Origin: Acidocella sp.
GTDB taxonomy: Bacteria > Pseudomonadota > Alphaproteobacteria > Acetobacterales > Acetobacteraceae
Assembly (NCBI GenBank): GCA_026224875.1
Contig: JAMFRU010000015.1
Span: 1 to 42,969 of the forward strand
DNA length: 42,969 nt
Reading direction: 5' to 3'
The notes under the pieces were generated by a model that was not told the origin of the DNA, did not search any database, and saw nothing but the letters and a program-made list of their open reading frames with translations. Below are positions 3,784 through 31,031 of the stretch, one piece after another. Numbering within the stretch: the stretch's first letter is position 1; each line of letters starts with the position of its first letter. Made by a program: the position numbers and the translations under genes.

Positions 3784-5952
3784 TCAGGCGAACCATGCCG
3801 GGAAAAATCCCTCATGGGCTTCGCGCAGCTGTGTCAAAGATATGGCAACAGCATTGTGGAGAGTCAATTTATTCCCATTAACGCTGGTGCCGATCTGCGT
3901 GGCGGGAATGGCTGCGGCTGCTGCGGCGGCCAATAGAGCGGGGGCGTTTTGCACGGCCAGAATGTAGCGCGCCTGGTCTTCGCCAAACCAGATTTCCGGG
4001 CCGGCATCCAGGGTTAAATCTACCCCCGTGCCGCCCGCGAGGGCCATTTCCGTGATGGCGACGAGCAGCCCGCCGTCAGCGATGTCGTGGCAGGCGGAAA
4101 CATGGCCGGAGAGGATTTGCGCGCGGACGAAATCGCCGTTTTTGCGCTCGGCGGCAAGGTCCATGGCCGGTGGTGCGCCGTCTTCGCGGCCAAGAATTTC
4201 CCGCAAATACAATGACCTGCCAAGCTCGCCACGAGTCTCGCCGATGACCACCAGCGTGAGGCCAGACGTAAGGCCGTAGCCGACCGCTTGCGCTGCATCC
4301 TCCAGCACGCCGACCGCGCCGATGGCTGGGGTGGGCAGAATCGGGCGGCCCTCGGTCTCGTTATAGAGCGAGACATTACCGGAGACGACCGGGAAATCCA
4401 GCGCAATACAGGCAGCGGACATGCCTTTGATGGCGCCGACGAACTGGCCCATGATCTCTGGTTTTTCGGGGTTGCCGAAATTCATATTATCCGTGATTGC
4501 CAAGGGCCTGGCGCCAGTGGCTGTGATGTTGCGCCAGGTTTCCGCGACCGCCTGGGCACCACCGGCTTCCGGGTCCGCGACGCAGTAACGAGGTGTGCAA
4601 TCCACAGTTATGGCCAAAGCCCGCTTGGTGCCTTCAAGCCGGATGATGGCGGCATCCGCCTGGGCCGGGCGTTTTACGGTCTGGCCGCCGACGGTGGAGT
4701 CATACTGATCAAAAATCCAGCGGCGTGAGCATAGGTCCGGGCAGCCGATCAATTTTTCGAGAGCATCTGCCAGCGTTATGGGATGCTCAACCTTGCCGAG
4801 AGGTGCTGGCTTCGCCGTCTCTACATACGGGCGGCGATACAAAGGCGCTGCCTCGGCCAGAGGGTCGAGCGCGATATCGGCTTCGACGATGCCCTTGTGT
4901 TTGACCACGATGCGGCCGGTATCGGTTATATGGCCGATGATGGCGTAGTCGAGGTCCCATTTTTCGATAATGGCCCGGGCCATCTCGCTGCGCTCGGGTT
5001 TGAGCACCAGCAGCATGCGCTCCTGGCTTTCGGACAGCATCATCTCATAGGCGGACATGCCGGTTTCGCGCTGCGGCACGTGGTCTAGGTCCAGCTCGAT
5101 GCCGACCCCGCCCTTGCCGGCCATCTCGACGCTGGAGGAGGTGAGGCCGGCCGCGCCCATATCCTGGATGGCGACGATGGCGTCCGTCTGCATCAGCTCC
5201 AGACAGGCCTCGATGAGCAGTTTTTCTGTGAACGGGTCGCCGACCTGCACGGTGGGGCGTTTGTCCTCGGAAGCGGCGTCGAATTCGGTGCTGGCCATGG
5301 TCGCGCCGTGGATGCCGTCGCGGCCGGTTTTACTCCCCACGTAAACCACGGGGTTGCCGATACCGGCGGCGGCGGAGAGGAATATCTTGTCCTGTGCCGC
5401 GATGCCGACCGTCATGGCGTTGACCAGCGGGTTGCCGTTATAGGCGGGATGAAAATTCACCTCGCCGCCCACGGTCGGCACGCCGACGCAATTGCCGTAG
5501 CCGCCGATGCCGCGTACCACGCCATCGACCACGCGCTTGGTTACGGGCAAGGCAGGGTCGCCGAAGCGCAGGGCGTTGAGGTTGGCGATGGGGCGGGCCC
5601 CCATGGTGAACACATCGCGCAAAATGCCGCCCACACCTGTGGCCGCACCCTGGTAGGGCTCAATAAAACTCGGGTGGTTATGCGACTCCATTTTGAAGAT
5701 CGCGGCCATGCCCTCGCCGATATCGATGACGCCAGCGTTTTCGCCCGGGCCGTGGATGACCCAGGGGGCTTTGGTGGGGAGTTCCTTCAGCCAGACGCGG
5801 CTGGATTTGTATGAACAATGTTCAGACCACATCACCGAGAAAATACCAAGCTCGGTCAGGCTCGGCGTGCGGCCCATGATGTCTAAAACTTTGCCGTATT
5901 CCTCGGCATTCAGGCCGAAGGATTTGGCGAGAGCGGCGTTAATCTCAGTCAT
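3784..5952 (-). CDS. purL: Phosphoribosylformylglycinamidine synthase subunit PurL
   Basis: The 722-residue small-type FGAM synthase catalytic subunit catalyses the ATP-dependent conversion of FGAR to FGAM in de novo purine synthesis, using ammonia delivered by PurQ through the PurS-bridged complex. Visible signatures: W-S-E-H-C-S-Y-K-S near the N-terminus, [13 protein letters not shown] and the [16 protein letters not shown] glycine-rich stretch, plus two AIRS-like halves. The length matches small PurL, not the 1,300-residue gammaproteobacterial fusion. Its ATG overlaps the purQ stop (ATGA), indicating translational coupling. Nothing looks truncated. Confidence 0.97.
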
Positions 5953-6614
5953 GCGGCTGCCAATGCGTCGAATAAGGGTTTGCCGTCGGTCCCGCCCATC
6001 AGCGGGTCAACCAGGTTTTCAGGGTGCGGCATCAAGCCGAGCACGCGCAGGTTGGGGGCAAAAATCCCGGCGATGTCCCGGGCGGAGCCGTTGCGGTTGC
6101 CGTCGGCATAACGGAAGGCGACGAGATTCTCGCCCTCCAGCCTGTCCAGCGTGGCGGAGTCGGCGGTGAAATTGCCGTCGCCATGCGCCATCGGGGCGCG
6201 GAACACGTCACCCTCGGCCCATTTATTGGTAAACACCGTATCCGTGCGCCCCACGCGCAGCATCGTGTCCATGGAGAGGAAGCGCAGGCCGGCGTTACGC
6301 AGCAGCGCGCCGGGCAAAATCCCGGCTTCAGTGAGAATCTGGAAGCCGTTGCACACGCCCAGCACATAACCACCGCGCGCCGCATGGGTTTTTACCGCCT
6401 GCATGATCGGGCTTTGCGCCGCCATGGCGCCGCAGCGCAGGTAATCGCCAAAGGAGAACCCGCCGGGGATAATGACCAGATCCGTGCCCGCGGGCAGGCC
6501 GGTTTCCTTATGCCAGACGATGGCGGGCTCATGACCAAAACTCTGGCGCACGGCAAGTTGCATGTCGCGCTCGCGGTTAATGCCAGGGAACAGCAGGATG
6601 GCGGCTTTCATCAT
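5949..6614 (-). CDS. purQ: Phosphoribosylformylglycinamidine synthase subunit PurQ (glutaminase)
   Basis: A 221-residue class I glutamine amidotransferase that supplies ammonia to PurL. The nucleophile elbow G-V-C-N-G-F-Q-I-L and a downstream P-H-P-E-N-L (catalytic His and Glu) are present. The start is placed at ATG 6614 (or the adjacent ATG 6611) because AGGAGG lies five bases upstream and the protein then begins [13 protein letters not shown], the family N-terminus. A longer open frame to 6713 reads through a repeat and is not credible. Overlaps purL by ATGA. Confidence 0.96.
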
Positions 6615-6715
6615 TTGCTCCTCCTGCCGGAACTGGGGCGGGGAGGCAATATGGTTGCGGGTAACCCCTGCTGTTTCATTATTGCCGGACTTGGCTCTTA
6701 TGCCGTCATGCATAT

Positions 6716-6740
6716 CGTCATACCCGCGAAAGCGGGTATC
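6716..6740. repeat. REP-like palindrome (CGTCATACCCGCGAAAGCGG...)
   Basis: A 25-bp element with a hairpin TACCCGC-GAAA-GCGGGTA, between purS and purQ. The same motif (with G/C instead of A/T at two stem positions) occurs inverted at 7138-7162, so the pair flanks purS. The substitution keeps the stem paired. CGTCATNCCCGCGAAAGCGGG-type repeats are widespread in alphaproteobacterial intergenic regions. Confidence 0.8.
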
Positions 6741-6837
6741 TTTTCACAACGGGGAAGCCGGAGATGCTCGCTTTCGCGATGGTGGCGGGGGAAAGGCTCA
6801 ACCTGCCAGGCCCGGCCTCGGGCGAGGGAGTTGCGGC

Positions 6838-7080
6838 TTAGGCCGCGATTTCGACTTTGAAGCTTTCGATGACCGTGTTGGCCAGCAGCTTCTTCGCCAT
6901 TTCCTCGGCGGCGGCCTTCGCGGCGGCGGGGTCGGTTTCGGTTAATTCCAGCTCGATGATCTTGCCGGCGCGGACTTCGCCGACCTGGGCGTAGCCGAGG
7001 TTGTTCAGGGCCTGGCCGATGGCTTTGCCCTGGGGGTCGAGCACGCCGTTTTTGAGCATGACGGTGACGATGGCTTTCAT
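6838..7080 (-). CDS. purS: Phosphoribosylformylglycinamidine synthase subunit PurS
   Basis: The 80-residue PurS structural subunit bridges PurL and PurQ. It begins M-K-A-I-V-T-V-M-L-K-N-G-V-L-D-P-Q-G-K-A, the family consensus, and contains L-G-Y-x-x-V-G-E-V-R-x-G-K. An in-frame extension upstream to 7158 encodes the REP repeat (M-P-A-K-A-G-I-P) and is rejected. The gene is flanked by two inverted REP-like repeats. It lies upstream of purQ with a 223-bp gap that holds one of these repeats, so local mRNA processing between purS and purQL is possible. Confidence 0.95.
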   Translation of the reverse strand: MKAIVTVMLKNGVLDPQGKAIGQALNNLGYAQVGEVRAGKIIELELTETDPAAAKAAAEEMAKKLLANTVIESFKVEIAA

Positions 7081-7137
7081 GAGCGGGCTTTCATGGGCAG
7101 GAAGCCGGGGCGGACTTCTGGGGCGGGGGAGTGAGGG

Positions 7138-7162
7138 GATGCCCGCTTTCGCGGGCATGACG
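7138..7162. repeat. REP-like palindrome, inverted copy upstream of purS
   Basis: The stem is GATGCCCGCTTTCGCGGGCA, the inverse of the 6716-6740 element. It lies between purC (ends 7198) and purS (starts 7080). The two copies together form a convergent pair around purS. Confidence 0.8.
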
Positions 7163-7197
7163 TGGAAGGCAGGCGTGACGTTAAGAAACGGGCAGAA

Positions 7198-7962
7198 TTA
7201 CTGCATCGTCTCCGGGCCCTTCATGTCGCGCGAGCCGGCTTCGGGGAGAATCCCTAAGCGGCGCGCCACTTCCTGATAGGCCTCTTCGATTTTGCCGAGG
7301 TCGCGGCGGAAACGGTCTTTGTCCATCTTCTCGTTGGTCTTGGAATCCCACAGCCGGCAATTATCCGGGCTGATCTCATCCGCGAGCACGATGCGCATGT
7401 CCTCGTTCTCGTACAGCCGGCCGAACTCGACCTTGAAGTCCACCAGCGTGATACCGACGCCGAGGAACAGGCCGGAGAGGAAATCGTTGATGCGCAGGGT
7501 CAGGTGAACAATGTCGTCCATGTCCGGGGGAGTGGCCCAGCCGAAGGCGGTGATGTGCTCTTCGGCGACGATCGGGTCGTTCAGCGCGTCGTTTTTGTAA
7601 TAGAACTCGATGATCGAGCGCGGCAGGCGGGTGCCCTCGGGGATGCCGAGGCGCTGGCTTATGGAGCCGGCGGCGATGTTGCGGACCACCACCTCGATGG
7701 GGATGATCTCGACCTCTTTAATTAACTGCTCGCGCATGTTGAGGCGGCGGATGAAATGGGTGGGGACGTTGATATCCGCCAGTTTCATCATCAGAAACTC
7801 GCTGATGCGGTTGTTGAGAACGCCCTTGCCGGTGATCGTGCCCTTTTTCTGGGCGTTGAACGCGGTCGCGTCATCCTTGAAATACTGCACGAGCGTGCCG
7901 GGCTCCGGGCCCTCGAACAGGATTTTCGCTTTGCCTTCGTATAACTGGCGGCGCCGGGCCAT
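7198..7962 (-). CDS. purC: SAICAR synthetase (phosphoribosylaminoimidazole-succinocarboxamide synthase)
   Basis: A 254-residue PurC that ligates aspartate to CAIR in de novo purine synthesis. Family motifs: Y-E-G-K-A-K near the N-terminus, [31 protein letters not shown] and [12 protein letters not shown]. The start is ATG at 7962 ([11 protein letters not shown]); the longer frame to 8091 is not homologous-looking. First gene of the - strand purine cluster (purC, purS, purQ, purL). It is divergent from the GGDEF gene. Confidence 0.97.
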
Positions 7963-8139
7963 GGTCTTGTACTTTCGAGATACAGTTGGGCGGAAATTCA
8001 GTGGAGCCGGTCTATACCAACCAAGCGCGCACAATGAAATGGCCCCCGCTTCAGGGCAGCTATCAACTGAGCCTGCGCGGAAACTGGACATAATTTAATG
8101 CGTTTCGGTTTGTTGGGAAAAATTTAAGAGTCGGGGTGC

Positions 8140-15210: not shown

Positions 15211-15900
15211 ATGATGCACAGGCGGGATCTGGTTCTCGGTGGTTCCGCGCTTGCCGCGGTGGGGGCGGGAGCTACCCGGGCGGATGCGGTTACCGGCGCA
15301 ATTGCTGGCGCGCTGCCGGTGCCGGCATCGGGCGCCATCGGTTTCAAGGTTCTGCATTCAGGCACGCCGGTGGGCGAGCATCATCTGACATTCACGCAAA
15401 ATGGCGATCAGCTGCAGGTGGATATCAACGCTGCGCTGGTGGTGAAGGTGATGGGCGTTGCGGTGTTCCATTATGCCTGCACGGCCACGGAGCGCTGGTC
15501 CGGCGGGGAGTTTGTGGGGTTGGACAGCAAAGTGAACCATAACGGCACGCCGCTGGAGGTGCATGCCAGCCCGATTTCCGGCGGGTTTGCGGTGCAAAGC
15601 ACCAAAGCCGGGAATTACAGCTACACCGGGCCGCAGAAAATGCTGCCGCTGACCTATTGGAACAAGGCGATGCTGGGCGCCATGATCCTGAATATCGAGA
15701 CGGGGCGGCATTATCCCGCCATTGTCAGCTCGCCGGGCTGGAATAATCTTACAACGGCCGAGGGCGGGCAATTACTGGCGCAGCGCTTCGACGTGACCGG
15801 CAAATTGCATCTGTCCGTCTGGTACGATCAGTTCACGCAATGGGCGGGTTTGACGTTCAATGTCGCGGGGCCGGTGATGTTTCAAAAGTTCGTGAGCTAA
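15211..15900 (+). CDS. Exported DUF6134 family protein
   Basis: A 229-residue protein with a Tat-like signal, M-M-H-R-R-D-L-V-L-G-G-S-A-L-A-A-V-G-A-G-A-T-R-A-D-A. A beta-rich mature domain follows (I-G-F-K-V-L-H-S-G-T-P-V-G-E-H-H-L-T-F and later W-N-N-L-T-T-A-E-G-G). It resembles the DUF6134 family, whose members are periplasmic beta-barrel-like (lipocalin-type) proteins of unknown function; this is recognised by pattern only. An RBS-like GGGAGG lies upstream. Stand-alone gene, divergent from the SixA-like phosphatase gene. Confidence 0.7.
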   Translation: MMHRRDLVLGGSALAAVGAGATRADAVTGAIAGALPVPASGAIGFKVLHSGTPVGEHHLTFTQNGDQLQVDINAALVVKVMGVAVFHYACTATERWSGGEFVGLDSKVNHNGTPLEVHASPISGGFAVQSTKAGNYSYTGPQKMLPLTYWNKAMLGAMILNIETGRHYPAIVSSPGWNNLTTAEGGQLLAQRFDVTGKLHLSVWYDQFTQWAGLTFNVAGPVMFQKFVS

Positions 15901-15987
15901 CGCTTTAGGTCGGGTTGTTAGGGTGCGCTGTGGCTTACCGCGGGTGGAACGCGGGTGGATCGAGCCGGCGGGTGGTTCAGCCATGCA

Positions 15988-16035
15988 CAGCGCAGATGCA
16001 TGGCTGGCCGCCGTTCAACCTAACGCTGCGTTAGT
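15988..16035. other. Small hairpins in the DUF6134 / 95-residue gene junction
   Basis: CCATGCA at 15991-15997 pairs with TGCATGG nine bases further on, and TAACG pairs with CGTTA at the end of the stretch. They separate convergent genes and may contribute to 3'-end formation. Nothing else is seen between 15901 and 16034. Confidence 0.35.
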
Positions 16036-16322
16036 TAGCCGTATTGTTTTTCGGGGTGGCGGAGGTGCCAGAGGCGCTCGTGGGCTGCCACCAGGCTCTC
16101 GATGCTCTTGCGCCGGTTAACATCGGGCGGAACCGTCCGCCGGGTCAGCATGTTCTCCAAAATCTTAAGCAATTGCTCGGCTATTTCGTAATCGGCCTGG
16201 TCGCAGGCGTGGTGGAAGGCAAGTAGAATTTTGTCCGACAGGCGGCGGCTGTAACGCGGTGTACCGCCCCCCGTGCGTGCAGAGATGTCGGTGCCGTCCT
16301 CTGCGTCAGTACTCTCGGCCAT
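16035..16322 (-). CDS. Small conserved-looking helical protein
   Basis: A 95-residue soluble protein. A disordered acidic N-terminus is followed by R-Y-S-R-R-L-S-D-K-I-L-L-A-F-H-H-A-C-D-Q-A-D-Y-E-I-A-E-Q-L-L-K-I-L-E, a clear helix-turn-helix hairpin resembling a single TPR-like repeat. A basic stretch (R-R-T-V-P-P-D-V-N-R-R-K) and a final amphipathic helix come next. I have an impression of similar short proteins in alphaproteobacteria but no function. It follows nrdB in the same direction after about 250 bp of AT-rich non-coding DNA, so it is probably independently transcribed. Confidence 0.7.
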   Translation of the reverse strand: MAESTDAEDGTDISARTGGGTPRYSRRLSDKILLAFHHACDQADYEIAEQLLKILENMLTRRTVPPDVNRRKSIESLVAAHERLWHLRHPEKQYG

Positions 16323-16560
16323 GATAATTGAATCCGTTTAAAAACATTGGCGCTGCGTAAGCGTTTTTCTGGGTTACATTATGAGAAGCAATTTAAAGGA
16401 AAATTTGTCAAGAAATATTAGGAATAGTTTAGTTTGTGTTACCCCAGATACACGCAAGGTACTGGGGAAGCACAAAAATACAACCTTAACAAGAGTCTCC
16501 TGAAAGGTTGGCTGGTAAACTTTCCGTTATAATGCCCTGTATATGGTCTGTTACATCGCC

Positions 16561-16584
16561 CGCTATATGGCCCGTTATATAGCG
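16561..16584. terminator. Hairpin overlapping the nrdB stop codon
   Basis: CGCTATAT and ATATAGCG (16561-16568 and 16577-16584) form an 8-bp stem with an 8-nt loop across the nrdB TAA (16575-16577). The AT-rich region 16323-16560 beyond it holds no gene I can support; it includes another weak CCCCAG/CTGGGG pair at 16442-16467. Confidence 0.4.
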
Positions 16585-17645
16585 AGGGGCTCGGCATCGC
16601 CGGCGGGGGTAAACTCGGCGAAGGCGTCTTCCCAGCTGCCGGTGGTGGAGGCTTTGCTGTATTCGGTGGAGCGGTTTTCGAAGAAATTGGCGTGTTCGAC
16701 CGCGTTCAGCATCTCGTCCAGCCAGGGCAGCGGGTTTTTCTCGACATGGAAGAGCGAGTTCAGGCCGAGCTGGGCCAGGCGGCGGTCGGCGATGTAGCGG
16801 ATGTAGCGCTTCACCTCTTCGCCGGTCAGGCCCTCAATGGCGCCGAACTCGAACGCGAGGTCGATGAAGGCGTCCTCATGGTCCACGATGGTGGCGCAGG
16901 TGAGGTAGATGTCGCGGCGCAGCTCTTCGGTCCAGATTTCCGGGTTTTCCTGCACGAAGGTGCGGAACAGCTTGATGATGGACTCGCAATGCAGGCTTTC
17001 ATCACGCACGGACCAGGTGATGATTTGCCCCATACCCTTCATTTTGTTGAATCTCGGAAAATTCAGCAGGATGGCGAAGGAGGCGAAGAGCTGCAGGCCC
17101 TCGGTGAAGGCGCCGAAAGCGGCCAGGGTTTTGGCGATCTCATGCTTATTCTCGACCGAAAAGCCGTGCATGAAGTCGTATTTGTCCTTCATCTCCTTGA
17201 ATTTGAGGAAGGCGGAGTATTCGACCTCGGGCATGCCGACGGTGTCGAGCAGATGCGAATAGGCGGCGATATGCACGGTCTCGATGTTCGAGAAGGCGGA
17301 GAGCATCATCAGCACTTCGGTGGGTTTGAACACCTGGCTGTAGCGTTTCATGTAACAGTTGTTCACCTCGACATCCGCCTGGGTGAAGAAGCGGAAGATA
17401 TGGGTGAGCAGGTTACGCTCGCCCAGGGTGAGGTTCTTGTGCCAGTCTTTCACGTCATCGGCCAGCGGCACTTCCTCCGGCAGCCAGTGGACGCGCTGCT
17501 GGGTGAGCCAGGCGTCATAGGCCCAGGGGTAGCGGAACGGCTTGTAGACCGGGTTCTCGGTGAGGAGGTCGAATTTCTGCTCCACGTCCGCTGACGGCGT
17601 GATGATCTGTCCGCTCATAATAAATGCCTTCAAAGACTGGGCCAT
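16575..17645 (-). CDS. nrdB: Ribonucleoside-diphosphate reductase beta subunit (class Ia)
   Basis: A 356-residue NrdB holding the diferric-tyrosyl radical cofactor. The motif N-I-E-T-V-H-I-A-A-Y has Glu, His and the radical Tyr in the class Ia spacing (E-x-x-H-x-x-x-Y). The second iron-binding helix is seen in V-R-D-E-S-L-H-C-E-S. The C-terminal tail is short and acidic, for NrdA binding. The start may be ATG 17645 or the internal ATG 17618 (M-S-G-Q-I-I-T-P), which has GAAGG nine bases upstream. It is separated from nrdA by a small reading frame and three hairpins, which may uncouple its expression. Confidence 0.96.
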   Translation of the reverse strand: MAQSLKAFIMSGQIITPSADVEQKFDLLTENPVYKPFRYPWAYDAWLTQQRVHWLPEEVPLADDVKDWHKNLTLGERNLLTHIFRFFTQADVEVNNCYMKRYSQVFKPTEVLMMLSAFSNIETVHIAAYSHLLDTVGMPEVEYSAFLKFKEMKDKYDFMHGFSVENKHEIAKTLAAFGAFTEGLQLFASFAILLNFPRFNKMKGMGQIITWSVRDESLHCESIIKLFRTFVQENPEIWTEELRRDIYLTCATIVDHEDAFIDLAFEFGAIEGLTGEEVKRYIRYIADRRLAQLGLNSLFHVEKNPLPWLDEMLNAVEHANFFENRSTEYSKASTTGSWEDAFAEFTPAGDAEPLAI

Positions 17646-25355: not shown

Positions 25356-25384
25356 TTTGAATTAAACCGGGAGAGATGTTGTTA

Positions 25385-28300
25385 ATGAGCTTCGACTTAG
25401 AGGGGCTGCCGCTCGAGCTTCCGGCTAATGATTACGTATCGCCAGGCCTGAAAATAGTCATCCCGGATGCCGCCTTCCCGAACATGATCGTTGGCGACAC
25501 CTCTGTGCCCAAATGGCCTTGGCTTCGCCGTTGGGTCGAACATAATTGGTATACAGACCGGCGCAACCCTAATGCAGGTTTTATCAGCCGGGACGAAGCT
25601 GCCATCCTTTACAACAGCGCCTTGCTTGTCCCAGACAAACCATGTCTCGAGATAGGTTGCTGGCGAGGTTGGTCCGCCGTGCATTTAGCTCTTGGAACGA
25701 ATTCGCTCGACATTATCGACCCTGTTTTTTCAAAGCCAGATTTCGCCGAGAGCATCCGTGCCTCCTGCAGAGCAGCGAACGTCATTGATAAAGTAACCTT
25801 TCATGAAGGTTATAGTCCTGGAGCAATCGATGCCTTGGCGCAAGAATCTGGTAAACGCTGGTCGCTAATCTTCATCGACGGCGAACATGAAGGCGATGGG
25901 CCGCGCCGGGACGCCGAGGCGGCCATGCGCCATGCTGACGAAACGGCGCTAGTGCTATTCCATGACCTTGCCTCGCCCTATGTTGCAGCAGGTCTCGATG
26001 CGATGCGAAATGCCGGCTGGCAGACGATGATCTATCAAACGATGCAGATCATGGGCGTTGCATGGCGCGGAAACATCGAGCCTGTCGAACATATTCCGGA
26101 TCCGCGCGTTTTTTGGACGCTCCCGCAGCATCTTTCCGGCTATCACGTATGTGGTTGGAAGCGCCCGAAGCTGCCTGTTACCGGTGCATGGTGGCCAAAC
26201 ATGACCCTCGAAGACCGCCGTCGCGCGGCAATGATGAGGGCGCAGGCCGCCGAGGATGACCGCACTTCCTCGTTGCTCGAGCGCGATGCCGCGTTCGCCG
26301 GGCGGGAGGCTGCGCTGCTTGAGCGAAATGCGATGCTGGCAGAGCGCGATGCTGCATTGGTTGAGCGCGATGCCGCGTTCGCTGGGCGGGAGGCTGCGCT
26401 GCTTGAACGAAATGCGATGCTGGCAGAACGTGAGACTGCATTGGTTGAGCGCGATGCCGCGTTCGCCGGGCGGGAGGTTGCGCTGCTTGAGCGAAATGCG
26501 ATGCTGGCAGAGCGCGATGCAGCATTGGTTGAGCGAGATGCCGCGTTCGCCGGGCGGGAGGTTGCGCTGCTTGAGCGAAATACGATGCTGGCAGAGCGCG
26601 ATGCAGCATTGGTTGAGCGAGATGCCGTACTAGCCGAGCGCAATGTTGCAGTGCTCAAGCGAGATACCGCGTTGACTGAACTGGCGCAGAGGACGGCCGG
26701 CCTGGAAGCGAGGCGCCATGCAGAAATGCTCGCTTTGGAGCTGAAAAATAAAAACCTATGTGCCGAGCGCGACGAGTTTCGGGAAGTTCTTTCTCGCCAA
26801 AACCTAAACTCTGCGATCATTGCTCTCTGCCGTTGGTTCGTAACAAAACATATATTGATTGCACTGTTGCGGCAGCCTGGCTCTGTCCGCGGAATGGCTC
26901 TTCGCAAACATGCCGAACTACTTGCGATCCCAGAGCTCATGTCCGACACAGTCGCTCACCTGTTGTGCAGACGGCGAATGCTCTTAGGGTTGCTGTGGCG
27001 ATCGACGCAGGCGGGCGAAGCCATCATAGTGCCTCTGCTTCAGCAAGCGGCCCAGATCTCCAATAATCCCCATGCCGGTGTGGCTGTGCAAATTTTACCG
27101 GCCCATGCCGGTGGAGTTGCGCAACTTCTACCGCGAAGCGATGAAACTGCTTTCGGATACACGTTGCCTTGGCGCTGGAGGGCTGGCGTTGCATGGAATG
27201 ACAGTCCGCCCGATCCGCAACTAGAACGCTACTTTCAGCAATTGGACGTGAATGGGGCCGCGGCGGCCAACTGGGCTAAACACGTAGCATCCTGCTGGCC
27301 GGTTCCGGAGGTTCGGGAGGGGCTGGAGGAAACGGTGACCCGGATACGCAATGACGGTTTATTCGATAGCCGTTACTATAGCGACCGGGCCGGCATAACC
27401 GGGCAGAATTTTGATCCAGCTCTCCATTACGCGCTCGTCGGCGAAGCGCTTGGTGTGTCGCCATCGGCCAGTTTCGACCCAATCTATTACGCCGATCGCA
27501 ATCCTGATGTATTGCGAGCGGGCCTGAATTTGCTTTTGCATTACTCTTACTCGGGACGCAGTGAGGGAAGATTGGCACTTCCGCCTAGCGTTTGGTACCA
27601 AAACCGCAAACAATTTAATCCGGACCGGGAGAATGTCATTGTCGTCGTTCATGATGCATCGCGGACCGGTGCACCGATACTTGGCTGGAACATCATCAAG
27701 CATCTCGCCGCAACGTACAATGTTTTTACGGTGATTCTGAACGGAGGCGCTCTCGTAGACGAGTTTCGGGTACTTAGCGCCGAGACTTTTGGCCCCTACC
27801 CGCGCGAACACCGTACCGAGATTGATCTGGAATTTGTCTTAAATCCGCTCTTCCAAAACCGAATTTTCCGTTATGCGATCATCAATAGTTCGGAATCACG
27901 CCAGATCATCGAAATCTGTTCGCTGCATTTGGTGCCGACCCTCTTCCTGATGCATGAGTTCGGTTCTTGCGTCGGGCCCGCAACGGATTTGTGCCGTGCT
28001 TTTGATCTGGCGACCGAAATCGTTTTTCCTGCGAGAATCGTCGCTGGCTCTTCCGAGGATCTTTACCCGCCTTTGAGACATCGCAACCTCAAAATTCTAC
28101 CGCAGGGAATGTCCGTGCTGCCTGCCGCGAATGCACCCTCTACGCCGCCCCCGGCTGTTAAGCTGGATGAGCTCTCAAAGTTACGCGCCTCTGGTGCATT
28201 TATTGTGCTGGGCGCGGGTACCGTGGATTTTCGCAAGGGCGTGGATTTATTTCTTGCCGCCGCATCGGCCGTACTGCGAACTCATCGGAGTTTGCGTCGT

Positions 28301-29803
28301 CCCGTCCATTTTGTGTGGGTCGGTCACGGTTATAATCCGACTTTGGACATGGGATTTTCCGTCTTTTTGCGAGAACAGATTTGGCGTTCGTCACTTGAAG
28401 GTAATGTTACCTTTCTTAATGAGGTCTCCGATCTCGAGCCGATTTATGCCTTGGCGGATGTTTTTTTCCTGGCTTCCCGGCTGGATCCGCTGCCGAACGT
28501 CTCTATCGATGCGGCGCATCGCGGTATTCCAATTGTGTGCTTTGAAAGCGCCAGCGGGACTTCCGAGCTCTTGAAGGCAAATCCGGGAACGGCTTTAGGT
28601 GTGGTCTCGTACCTCGATGCAAATGCAGCGGGTCAGGTCATCGCCCAGCTTGCTTCCGATAATACGATGCACAAAGCTCTTGGAGAGGCAACGGCCGCGC
28701 TTGCTCGTCGAACGTTCAACATGGAGCATTATGTAAACCAACTGGACGAACTTGGCCGGAATTGCGCAGTACGGATCTCGCAACGTCAACGCGATGCGGA
28801 AAGCCTCACCCGAAGCGATGGTTTCGATGTAGATTTATTTTTGGGTACAAAGCCAATTATCGAAGCTCGGGAAAAGACCATTGCAAGGTATCTCGCGTTT
28901 TCTGCGGGCGTGGGCGTAACTGGCCCCGAATCAATTGGCCGCCGGGCGTCTCCTGGCTTTGATCCGGGAAAGTGGGAAAGAGGGCATCCTGGCGGCCTGT
29001 CGTCCGGCGAGGACGCTTATGCGGCGTTTATACGTTCCGGTTCTCCGCCAGGTCCCTGGCAATCCCGTGTGCTTCATCCGCCTTCAAAACCATCAATGTT
29101 TTTTGGGGGGGATTTGCGAGTTGTTTTACACATACATCTCCCCGACGATTCTTCGGTAGACCGACTACTCACCAGGCTATCGTCCAATACCCTTGCCTGC
29201 GACTTACTCGTCACTACCGGTTCTGAAAACAATGCAAAACATATTTCTCGTGCCCTGAAAACCTACAATTTGGGCTCACTCGATGTTCGGGTTTTGCCGG
29301 GCAATTCTACCAGCATACTTCATTCGCTTGCAGAGGAACTGACCCATTACGACGTGATCGGGCATGTATATGCCTACGCCAGTAACGGGCAACCGGCCCG
29401 GCAGGATTTCCAATGGGAAACCCTGCTCGGTGGGAGACACCCGATGCGTGATTTGACGATCGATGCGTTTGCTCAAACACCGGCGCTTGGTCTTGTATTT
29501 CCCGCAATGCCACAAGTCGCAATCTGGAACGACGCGATCCGCGGCCATTTGGCCAGTCTCATTTCGTCTCATTGCTCTCCTGGCTGGAAGCTCGAAGAGG
29601 GTGATTATCCGCAAGAAGGCATGTTCTGGGTACGAGCGCCTGTTTTAGCACAATTGGCCGAGCTGGGTGAAATGAATGTGGAAGTGGATATCTGCGAGAA
29701 TGGCGACGACCTCAGCAGGGCATTCGAGCGTTTGCTGATTACGGCTAATAAGCAAGCCGGGCTTTCTCACGCTGTTGCACATGTTCCGGGTGTCATGTGG
29801 TGA
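25385..29803 (+). CDS. Giant methyltransferase / coiled-coil / GT4 / RgpF fusion
   Basis: A 1,472-residue protein. Start at ATG 25385, with GGGAGAG nine bases upstream (ATG 25376 is too close to it). Domains by position from 25376: class I methyltransferase (Methyltransf_24-like) at 1-255 with L-E-I-G-C-W-R-G-W-S and F-I-D-G-E-H-E-G-D-G; coiled coil about 300-465 of E-R-D-A-A-L-V heptads, partly four 28-residue repeats; an F-D-x-x-Y-Y ... N-P-D-V ... H-Y-S-Y-S-G-R-S-E-G-R module about 655-735; GT4 glycosyltransferase about 750-1110 with V-D-F-R-K-G-V-D-L-F and S-R-L-D-P-L-P-N-V-S; a short G-F-D-P-G ... G-P-W module; rhamnan-synthesis F (RgpF) domain about 1245 to the end. Likely builds and modifies a surface polysaccharide. 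The methyltransferase-plus-coiled-coil layout recalls WbdD, a chain-length-setting terminator; that role here is inference. Low G+C suggests transfer. Confidence 0.9.
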   Translation: MSFDLEGLPLELPANDYVSPGLKIVIPDAAFPNMIVGDTSVPKWPWLRRWVEHNWYTDRRNPNAGFISRDEAAILYNSALLVPDKPCLEIGCWRGWSAVHLALGTNSLDIIDPVFSKPDFAESIRASCRAANVIDKVTFHEGYSPGAIDALAQESGKRWSLIFIDGEHEGDGPRRDAEAAMRHADETALVLFHDLASPYVAAGLDAMRNAGWQTMIYQTMQIMGVAWRGNIEPVEHIPDPRVFWTLPQHLSGYHVCGWKRPKLPVTGAWWPNMTLEDRRRAAMMRAQAAEDDRTSSLLERDAAFAGREAALLERNAMLAERDAALVERDAAFAGREAALLERNAMLAERETALVERDAAFAGREVALLERNAMLAERDAALVERDAAFAGREVALLERNTMLAERDAALVERDAVLAERNVAVLKRDTALTELAQRTAGLEARRHAEMLALELKNKNLCAERDEFREVLSRQNLNSAIIALCRWFVTKHILIALLRQPGSVRGMALRKHAELLAIPELMSDTVAHLLCRRRMLLGLLWRSTQAGEAIIVPLLQQAAQISNNPHAGVAVQILPAHAGGVAQLLPRSDETAFGYTLPWRWRAGVAWNDSPPDPQLERYFQQLDVNGAAAANWAKHVASCWPVPEVREGLEETVTRIRNDGLFDSRYYSDRAGITGQNFDPALHYALVGEALGVSPSASFDPIYYADRNPDVLRAGLNLLLHYSYSGRSEGRLALPPSVWYQNRKQFNPDRENVIVVVHDASRTGAPILGWNIIKHLAATYNVFTVILNGGALVDEFRVLSAETFGPYPREHRTEIDLEFVLNPLFQNRIFRYAIINSSESRQIIEICSLHLVPTLFLMHEFGSCVGPATDLCRAFDLATEIVFPARIVAGSSEDLYPPLRHRNLKILPQGMSVLPAANAPSTPPPAVKLDELSKLRASGAFIVLGAGTVDFRKGVDLFLAAASAVLRTHRSLRRPVHFVWVGHGYNPTLDMGFSVFLREQIWRSSLEGNVTFLNEVSDLEPIYALADVFFLASRLDPLPNVSIDAAHRGIPIVCFESASGTSELLKANPGTALGVVSYLDANAAGQVIAQLASDNTMHKALGEATAALARRTFNMEHYVNQLDELGRNCAVRISQRQRDAESLTRSDGFDVDLFLGTKPIIEAREKTIARYLAFSAGVGVTGPESIGRRASPGFDPGKWERGHPGGLSSGEDAYAAFIRSGSPPGPWQSRVLHPPSKPSMFFGGDLRVVLHIHLPDDSSVDRLLTRLSSNTLACDLLVTTGSENNAKHISRALKTYNLGSLDVRVLPGNSTSILHSLAEELTHYDVIGHVYAYASNGQPARQDFQWETLLGGRHPMRDLTIDAFAQTPALGLVFPAMPQVAIWNDAIRGHLASLISSHCSPGWKLEEGDYPQEGMFWVRAPVLAQLAELGEMNVEVDICENGDDLSRAFERLLITANKQAGLSHAVAHVPGVMW
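26279..26614 (+). repeat. Four 84-bp tandem repeats encoding the coiled coil
   Basis: Units at 26279-26362, 26363-26446, 26447-26530 and 26531-26614, each 28 codons or four heptads (E-R-D-A-A-F-A, G-R-E-A-A-L-L, E-R-N-A-M-L-A, E-R-D-A-A-L-V), differ at only a few bases. A decayed continuation follows to about 26680. In-frame gain or loss of units would change coiled-coil length by four heptads. Confidence 0.95.
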
Positions 29804-30086
29804 GAAAGAACGGGTTAGAACGGATGTTTCCTGCCACCCCTGACGGCAAACTCATTGAAGTGTTCGCACGCGGCGTTTGGCTATCTCTGCCCTGCTGGGT
29901 TTCGAGTGGACGGTACAATCTGCCTGATAGCGGCGAGGGCAGGCTATAGGTTCTAAATAAATTGTTGTCAGAATGCGGAGCTCTTGCTGCGCATTGAAAT
30001 TTTACAACCCGAGAGGTTTGAGCGATTGCTCGATGGTCTTTCGTGTGCCAAGTCGCGCCTATCAAACTAATTCGAGGTATCGGCAA
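29804..30086. other. Spacer between the giant gene and the epimerase gene
   Basis: About 280 bp. A 42-codon + strand frame from ATG 29823 (M-F-P-A-T-P-D-G-K-L-I-E-V-F) ends at 29949; it has no recognisable family and may be chance or a relic. The rest holds no gene I can support. Confidence 0.35.
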
Positions 30087-31031
30087 TTGAGCGAACGTCA
30101 TCTGATTTTAGGCGGCGGCGGGTTTATTGGCCGCCATGTTGCTTTGCAGCTTGCACGGGACGGACACGATGTCCTGCTTGCCTGCCGCAGGCCAATGATC
30201 CAGGAGGTCCCCGCTGACCTTGCAGCGAAAATCAGCTGGCAGTTTACTGAGTTAGGTTCAGCGGACTGGGACACACTGATCGCTGAAATAGACGTGGTGC
30301 ACCACTATGCCTGGGGTTCGCTGCCGGCGAGTGCCAATGCAAATCCTGGCGGCGATTTGTTGACAAATGTCGGTGCCACGATTGACCTGCTCAACGCGCT
30401 GCACCGCCGTGGTGCCGGCCGCTTGATATTCTCGTCTTCCGGGGGCACCGTGTATGGCAAACTGAATAAAACGCCCGTTCCAGAAGATCATCCGATCGCC
30501 CCCATAAATGCGTACGGCGCTGGAAAAGCGGCTGCGGAAGTCTATATGAGTCTTTACCGTGCGATGCACGGTCTCGACTGCCGTATCGCGCGAATTGCCA
30601 ATCCTTTCGGAGCAGGTCAAAACTTGTCACATGGGCAAGGTGCCGCCACCACCTTCATTCATCGGGCTCTCAATGGGCTGCCCATTACGATATGGGGAAC
30701 TGGTGAGGTCGTGCGCGACTACGTCTATGTTACCGATGTTGCACAATGCCTTGTGATGCTGGCTGCCGCGCCGCGTAGTGACGAATTTACTTTCAATGTC
30801 GGCAGCGGTGTCGGCATCAGTCTGAATGATATCGTGGTTGAATTGGAAGCCCAGCTAGGCCACAAGCTGAATGTTACTCGTACAGCATCGCGCTCCATCG
30901 ACATCCCTGTAAGCGTTCTTTCGATCGAACGGGCACACAAGGTCCTGGGGTGGACGCCAATCGTATCTTTCTCGGAAGGCGTCGCCCGCACATTGGACGA
31001 TCTGCGGCGAAACGCAGATCGCTCAACATAA
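30087..31031 (+). CDS. NAD-dependent sugar epimerase/dehydratase
   Basis: A 314-residue extended SDR. The Rossmann motif L-I-L-G-G-G-G-F-I-G-R-H starts a few residues after TTG 30087, which has GAGG nine bases upstream; the open frame further up to 29973 is not family-like. Catalytic S-S-S-G-G-T-V-Y-G and Y-G-A-G-K (YxxxK) are present, followed by R-I-A-N-P-F-G and the substrate segment R-D-Y-V-Y-V-T-D-V. Such enzymes interconvert nucleotide sugars (UDP-glucose 4-epimerase and relatives). Placed next to the glycosyltransferase fusion, it probably supplies its sugar donor; the exact substrate is unknown. Confidence 0.88.
   Translation: MSERHLILGGGGFIGRHVALQLARDGHDVLLACRRPMIQEVPADLAAKISWQFTELGSADWDTLIAEIDVVHHYAWGSLPASANANPGGDLLTNVGATIDLLNALHRRGAGRLIFSSSGGTVYGKLNKTPVPEDHPIAPINAYGAGKAAAEVYMSLYRAMHGLDCRIARIANPFGAGQNLSHGQGAATTFIHRALNGLPITIWGTGEVVRDYVYVTDVAQCLVMLAAAPRSDEFTFNVGSGVGISLNDIVVELEAQLGHKLNVTRTASRSIDIPVSVLSIERAHKVLGWTPIVSFSEGVARTLDDLRRNADRST

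Follow-up and report, generated by a model that had tools for sequence, protein, structure and literature searches.

Can a single bacterial polypeptide build a glycan chain, cap it and measure it? The question is raised by a reading frame in the 42,969-nucleotide stretch of an Acidocella sp. contig that was analysed here (the window), in which a preliminary description saw a terminator-type methyltransferase, a coiled-coil ruler and polymerising transferases fused so that chain length could be set within one molecule. Our answer is a different one, to which we give a probability of about one half: the protein would be a membrane-held GT4 glycosyltransferase joined to an O-methyltransferase and active in a small pathway of epimerase and GT-C; its coil would be a spacer and its RgpF tail inactive. 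The fusion idea as such is known, since PMC11231755 already describes terminator, ruler and polymerase in one polypeptide for Klebsiella O12 WbbB and O7 ORF6; the present protein is a variant of it in having GT4 as its transferase, an RgpF tail that looks dead and a GT-C partner, and no paper describing exactly this protein was found among the top-listed open-licence papers.

Reading frame and catalytic modules

The frame (25376..29803; 1475 aa) is open throughout, and its translation probably starts at ATG 25385 (Met4), which gives 1472 aa and by eye is better spaced from GGGAGAG than ATG 25376; the features of the window described below are all on its plus strand. Pfam places Methyltransf_24 at residues 91-197 (6.8e-13), GT4 at residues 944-1095 (1.2e-14) and RgpF at residues 1247-1461 (2.5e-11; profile positions 270-501 of 503). 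These matches and the motifs read in the sequence bear out the order first described, namely methyltransferase, coil, F-D modules, GT4, GFDP segment and RgpF; the F-D modules and the GFDP segment match no Pfam or NCBIfam family at E 1, however, and a count of six working modules is too high, the RgpF domain being degenerate. An assembly error was considered as the origin of the fusion and dropped: the methyltransferase-GT4 joint is not an assembly accident because the two are likewise fused in the relatives L034 and L006 and lie in adjacent genes in L062. Structure prediction, from alignments with one relative, added one long helix (residues 299-427) in a model of residues 1-760 that is otherwise unusable (mean pLDDT 39); in the model of residues 740-1475 (mean pLDDT 50), strands and helices alternate over GT4 and the RgpF part is poor.

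The N-terminal SAM methyltransferase, residues 14-268 (25415..26179), stands as proposed. It is a class I O-methyltransferase of the Methyltransf_24 family by its Pfam match, by alignment with five relatives, in which the motifs E-I/V-G, I/V-D-P, D-G/A-x-H and F-H-D are kept, and by comparison of its profile with the PDB; the profile match comes with the SAM-site and the D-x-x-H and H-D motifs. Among the members in which it is joined to GT4, the domain is 71-75% identical. On its own, at E 1e-25, it matches 8 of 397 genomes of the family, that of the window among them, and is fused or adjacent to GT4 in four of them (G000, G407, G442 and G018), while the fetched flanks in the other four (G014, G138, G435 and G438) hold no GT4 like that of the fusion at E 1e-6. 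In G435 (L063), an ORF 1.8 kb from the methyltransferase reads, by eye, like a GT4. The same methyltransferase subfamily is also found behind a different N-terminal domain in L039 (8367-9959; GT8-like by eye, without a Pfam match and with no coil between) and behind a TylF-type (macrocin) methyltransferase in L064 (8883-10988).

Between the coil and the F-D modules lies a helical segment, basic and hydrophobic, whose repeats are of the RRxLLGLLRR type (residues 484-562; 26825..27061). It was absent from the preliminary description, and the alignment shows it to be common to the GT4 clade defined below. It is a possible membrane-contact region, and we call it the anchor for short; its hydrophobic moment is not outstanding in the window and is higher in L006, L033 and L037. 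The linker that follows it contains a 33-bp tandem repeat in two copies (27069-27133). The two F-D-x-x-Y-Y modules, read directly in the sequence, occupy residues 651-735 (27326..27580), the copies beginning at residues 661 and 699 and the second carrying N-P-D-V. The GT4 glycosyltransferase, residues 745-1130 (27608..28765), matches Glyco_trans_1_4 and Glycos_transf_1, keeps R-K-G and contains SRLDPLPNVSIDA and GAGTVDFRKG; the usual form of the GT4 signature is E-x7-E, in place of which SRLDPLPNVSIDA has D-x7-D, as in all six clade members. The segment after it, residues 1131-1232 (28766..29071), was recognised from the sequence and the alignment and carries GFDP at residue 1194.

Relatives and the distribution of the coil

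At E 1e-20, the whole fusion protein has matches in 13 of 100 genomes of the family, and at E 1e-35 in 10 of 395 of the order; both counts take in the window's own genome, and the latter rests on two candidates scored per genome, with misses possible. By its GT4 part, it belongs to a clade with L034, L006, L062C, L033 and L037, in which identities are 51-64%, compared with 31-43% between the clade and L036, L035, L038 and L028. The contig L006 comes from a Rhodospirillales MAG; its gene does not differ from the one in G018, whose genome belongs to the window's family. An archaeal GT4 match with 20% identity (L007) and nine family genomes matching the GT4 part at 27-37% (G004, G006, G020, G062, G067, G071, G079, G086 and G096) were left out of the comparison. 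Among 75 plasmid records with matches, none has a single place covering 80% of the query, and in the 25 of 75 listed, the match begins at residue 651 or later, so no methyltransferase is included.

Proteins with the full order of the fusion were found in part. L034 has methyltransferase, coil, anchor, F-D modules and GT4, and L006 the same without the F-D modules, both fused but without RgpF; in L062 the protein is divided after the anchor into two adjacent genes, methyltransferase-coil-anchor and GT4-RgpF, followed by an epimerase gene. L033 has coil, anchor, F-D modules, GT4 and RgpF without a methyltransferase, and L037, from the genus of the window, has only anchor and GT4. Outside the clade, L036 and L041 combine other methyltransferases with a coil and GT4, and L035, L038 and L028 consist of F-D modules, GT4 and RgpF only. 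The modules are exchangeable and freely mixed among relatives, which, together with the two-gene form of L062, is new here.

The coil of the window, residues 295-483 (26258..26824), is a stretch of 189 aa rich in Ala, Glu and Arg and free of proline, and the low-confidence model helix falls within it. We scanned the relatives for such stretches by a rule that was made after seeing the sequences (80 residues without proline, few glycines and aromatics) and obtained scores of either zero or 0.68-0.85, with none intermediate. For L040 and L064, whose ORF starts look wrong, the scan began at residues 341 and 211, respectively; L062C, also negative, was counted as the partner of L062N, and L042 was left out. 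A coil was found in the window, L034, L006, L062N, L036 and L041, that is, wherever methyltransferase and GT4 occur together in one protein or gene pair (6/6), and in 1/9 of the remainder, the exception being L033, with L037, L035, L038, L028, L040, L039, L063 and L064 negative (Fisher 0.0014, for related sequences and a post hoc rule). The distribution is indicative of a coil that tracks the joint presence of the two enzymes.

Possible chain termination, export and partner genes

In PMC11231755, a methyltransferase and a transferase at opposite ends of a long coil are characteristic of chain-terminating machines, and this layout, taken as layout only, is present in the window, in L034 and L006 and in the gene pair of L062. 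The first alternative to weigh is that the fusion is a chain terminator of the ORF6-O7, WbbB or O8-WbdD kind with its coiled coil as a ruler, in which the methyltransferase would cap a polymer made by GT4 and partner transferases, the coil would set its length and the Wzm/Wzt proteins encoded on contig C21 of the same genome would export it. The coil may control chain length; the alternative as a whole we consider unlikely.

The closest of these systems is K. pneumoniae O7 ORF6, in which, according to PMC11231755, an N-terminal methyltransferase, a central coil and C-terminal transferases share one polypeptide, a layout equal to that of the fusion. ORF6 differs in having a kinase and a predicted carbohydrate-binding domain after the methyltransferase and two GT2 modules (same source); in the fusion protein, no kinase family was matched up to E 1 in Pfam and NCBIfam, GT4 stands instead of GT2, the second transferase is degenerate and no exporter gene lies beside the clade. 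The kinase of O7 was also unannotated; a kinase belongs to the O9a system as well, but a chain terminator does not need one, since methyl-only termination exists in E. coli O8, whose WbdD has just a methyltransferase (PMC3482155). The E. coli O8/O9a WbdD proteins share the N-terminal methyltransferase and coil but lack a fused transferase and recruit WbdA (PMC3482155), and the profile of the fusion's methyltransferase matches catechol-type O-methyltransferases in the PDB, with WbdD not among the 60 of 84 matches listed. K. pneumoniae O12 WbbB likewise unites polymerisation, termination and coil in one polypeptide, but there a Kdo transferase terminates the chain and polymerisation falls to two C-terminal transferases (PMC11231755). 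According to the same paper, the N-terminal part of ORF6 has orthologues in Alphaproteobacteria, and a homologue is found in Gluconacetobacter diazotrophicus.

Within the bacterial family of the window, L036 and L041 speak for the ruler, as they carry proteins of the same methyltransferase-coil-GT4 order near exporter genes, L036 with F-D modules and RgpF as well. In L041, Wzm, Wzt with a Wzt_C domain and its methyltransferase-coil-GT4 protein stand in a row; L036 has nearby a permease of the LPS type (9qfx, E 2.3e-45) and an ABC gene in which Wzt_C is not matched. Their proteins differ from that of the window, however: the methyltransferase of L036 shares the Pfam family but has an identity of only about 28% and that of L041 is a Methyltransf_11, a S-T-S-W-K-x-T-R-P segment follows the coil, and the RgpF domain of L036 is high-scoring. 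An exporter-linked terminator is a reasonable reading for these two loci and a less likely one for the window.

A tblastn search with six Wzm and Wzt proteins found no such genes at E 1e-3 in the window or in the five other clade loci of about 20 kb (L006, L034, L033, L037 and L062), and the same search recovers the known exporter genes in L036, L041 and L051; a linked ABC exporter with a carbohydrate-binding domain is thus not seen in the six clade loci. Wzt_C occurs in 3 of 30 chosen genomes and in one of the five clade genomes, which is the window's own. There, contig C21 (L051:12277-19768) holds Wzm, Wzt with Wzt_C, GT2, an FkbM methyltransferase and GT4 in one cluster, so that an ABC route is conceivable. 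A helical tail of 80 residues, basic and hydrophobic at its end and without a heptad signal (327/1000 shuffles), makes the FkbM protein (15766-16902) resemble a short WbdD; because of this tail, the C21 exporter may own its methyl cap enzyme, a candidate nearer than the fusion. The variable coil length, 111-191 aa across relatives, and the tracking of methyltransferase and GT4 would suit a ruler, whereas the coil of L033 without a methyltransferase, the GT4 of L037 without methyltransferase or coil, and a polypeptide with a single clearly live transferase would not. Of the original chain-terminator proposal, the layout holds, and the second polymerising domain, RgpF, looks dead.

The conserved partners of the clade are an epimerase gene and a GT-C-like membrane protein, not an ABC exporter. 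The former, a NAD-dependent sugar epimerase/dehydratase (GalE-like; 29973..31031) by Pfam, NCBIfam, PDB and synteny, is a separate gene that follows the fusion across a gap and probably has its real start at a TTG near 30087. In L034 (72%), L006 (64%), L062 (65%) and L037 (55%), a relative of this gene stands next to the GT4 gene, making five of the six clade loci with the window, and in the outgroups L035 (57%) and L036 (55%) one is near it; none was found in the fetched flank of L033. The GT-C-like gene overlaps the end of the epimerase gene by 4 bases in L006, is next door on the opposite strand in L034 and stands about 5 kb past the GT4 gene on the same contig in G442; the homologue in the genome of the window (54% identical) is on another contig, C31, and in G377, too, GT-C and GT4 are on different contigs. 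Its assignment is weak, with Pfam PMT_2 at 28.4 bits in one homologue and below the cut-off in another, and the protein has no PDB match up to E 1 and no NCBIfam match. Of the 30 chosen genomes, 5 have the gene; these are precisely the ones that contain the clade, and it is missing from 17 further genomes of the genus to which the window belongs. The order sample shows it in 4/4 clade genomes (G000, G018, G377 and G407) and 1/391 others (Fisher 5e-9, which ignores kinship), the 395-genome draws for GT-C and for the fusion protein being taken as the same genomes from their equal size and listed handles. The sole exception to the co-occurrence is G159, with a GT-C homologue at C88:49810-51489 (L071) and no clade GT4 match.

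Coil, tail and proposed pathway

How the coil is built bears on a second alternative, that it is an oligomerisation rod or flexible tether and that the methyltransferase and GT4 act on short oligosaccharides with no length control or spacing rule. We regard this as rather unlikely, as the coil is absent in 8/9 of the scanned proteins that lack one of the two enzymes, and yet several features are in its favour. Coil sequences are dissimilar, that of the window being 26-39% identical to the others, and L033 has a coil with no methyltransferase to hold. A heptad, L-x-E-R-D-A-A, can be read in the window, where it forms a four-residue hydrophobic stripe without a clean a/d core, and its periodicity is marginal, being reached by 51/1000 shuffles; the corresponding numbers are 1 for L036, 173 for L062N, 156 for L033, 508 for L034 and 577 for L006, the last two not above shuffles. 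A long helix is likely in all six coil-bearing members scanned for heptads, and classical heptad periodicity is clear only in L036; of the coiled coil first described in the window, the long helix is retained and a classical coiled coil is plausible only.

Within the coil is an 84-bp tandem repeat (26279..26627) of 4.2 copies with 93% matches, whose copy number is uncertain in a draft genome and whose first four units have 74-82 of 84 nt identical in pairs. The array looks like recent slippage, which speaks for the tether. The unit encodes 28 aa, exactly four heptads, and its gain or loss would preserve the phase. An alpha-helix rises 0.1485 nm per residue, at which the unit would span ~4.2 nm and the whole helix ~28 nm. 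In WbdD, the coil keeps the enzymes some 20 nm away from the membrane (PMC5082667). An extension of the proposed pathway that we hold to be distinctly unlikely is that a coil-spaced methyl cap serves the epimerase/GT-C pathway rather than an ABC exporter whose domain reads the terminator and that length is tuned by slippage of the 84-bp unit, four heptads (~4.2 nm) per step. The coil of L062 (8830-10581) has an internal 39-residue repeat of its own, with 35/152 positions matching, unlike the 28-residue unit of the window.

The C-terminal RgpF domain, residues 1233-1475 (29072..29800), is present as described, with a PF05045 profile match above the cut-off (43.4 bits vs 25); a WsaF-like tail was considered and dropped, Pfam giving RgpF. 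A second polymerising transferase is another matter. The polar motifs common to L036, L035, L038 and L028, whose conservation suggests a catalytic role, are broken in the window, which lacks HYP of HxHFHYP, GRD of PNRGRD, HGKR of GHxHGKRS, N of NR, and DG and H of DGxxLHxxER, and keeps H-x-H, G-H, R of NR and E-R. The same cores are lost in L033 and L062C, hence in all three clade members that carry the domain, and L034, L006 and L037 have no such domain at all. Pfam gives the domain 43 bits in the window and 15.5 in L062C and lists no match at E 0.001 for L033, as against 180, 164 and 157 bits in L036, L035 and L038 outside the clade (L028 was left unscored), and identity of the window with L062C and L033 is 67/210 and 79/234 in RgpF (32-34%) vs 228/384 and 221/383 in GT4 (58-59%). 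The domain looks to be decaying, and with the motifs gone it looks inactive, leaving one clearly live transferase in the polypeptide. That RgpF instead still works as a second transferase through other catalytic residues, making a true two-transferase polymerase, could appeal to the remaining motif residues, the packing residues L-L-G-G and M-F-W and the 43 bits, but is very improbable given these losses and scores.

In the spacer reading that we prefer, the fusion would be a two-enzyme glycan-assembly protein in presumed contact with the inner membrane. The neighbouring epimerase would reshape a nucleotide sugar, from which GT4 would add a sugar to a lipid-linked glycan; the O-methyltransferase, held off on the long helix as a spacer between the two active sites, would methylate the GT4 product, perhaps as a cap, and the product would enter a pathway requiring the GT-C-like membrane transferase encoded on C31, with the RgpF tail as an inactive remnant. 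The membrane contact, the methylated substrate, the use of the product by the GT-C protein and the order of the steps are what we infer. Should the coil be a ruler after all, the clade would offer natural length variants (111-191 aa), one-gene and two-gene forms and an in-frame repeat in heptad steps, and would allow a direct test of the ruler idea beyond enteric bacteria; should it not be one, methyltransferase, coil and transferase alone would be no proof of a chain terminator. Either way, co-occurrence outlines an unnamed pathway of GT4, epimerase and GT-C.

Two further fusions were seen in passing. In L033, the methyltransferase-less coil-GT4 gene adjoins a gene (5219-8011) whose product joins a Methyltransf_23 domain and a rhamnosyltransferase of the WsaF type (WsaF_N and WsaF_C). 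On contig C27 of the window's own genome (G000), a 1255-aa protein (L042:8696-12463) has about four F-D/N-P-D-V copies followed by GT4 and a GT2-like part; the stretch before its GT4 resembles what we take to be a GH99-like domain, and the genes beside it are presumably rmlA-D.
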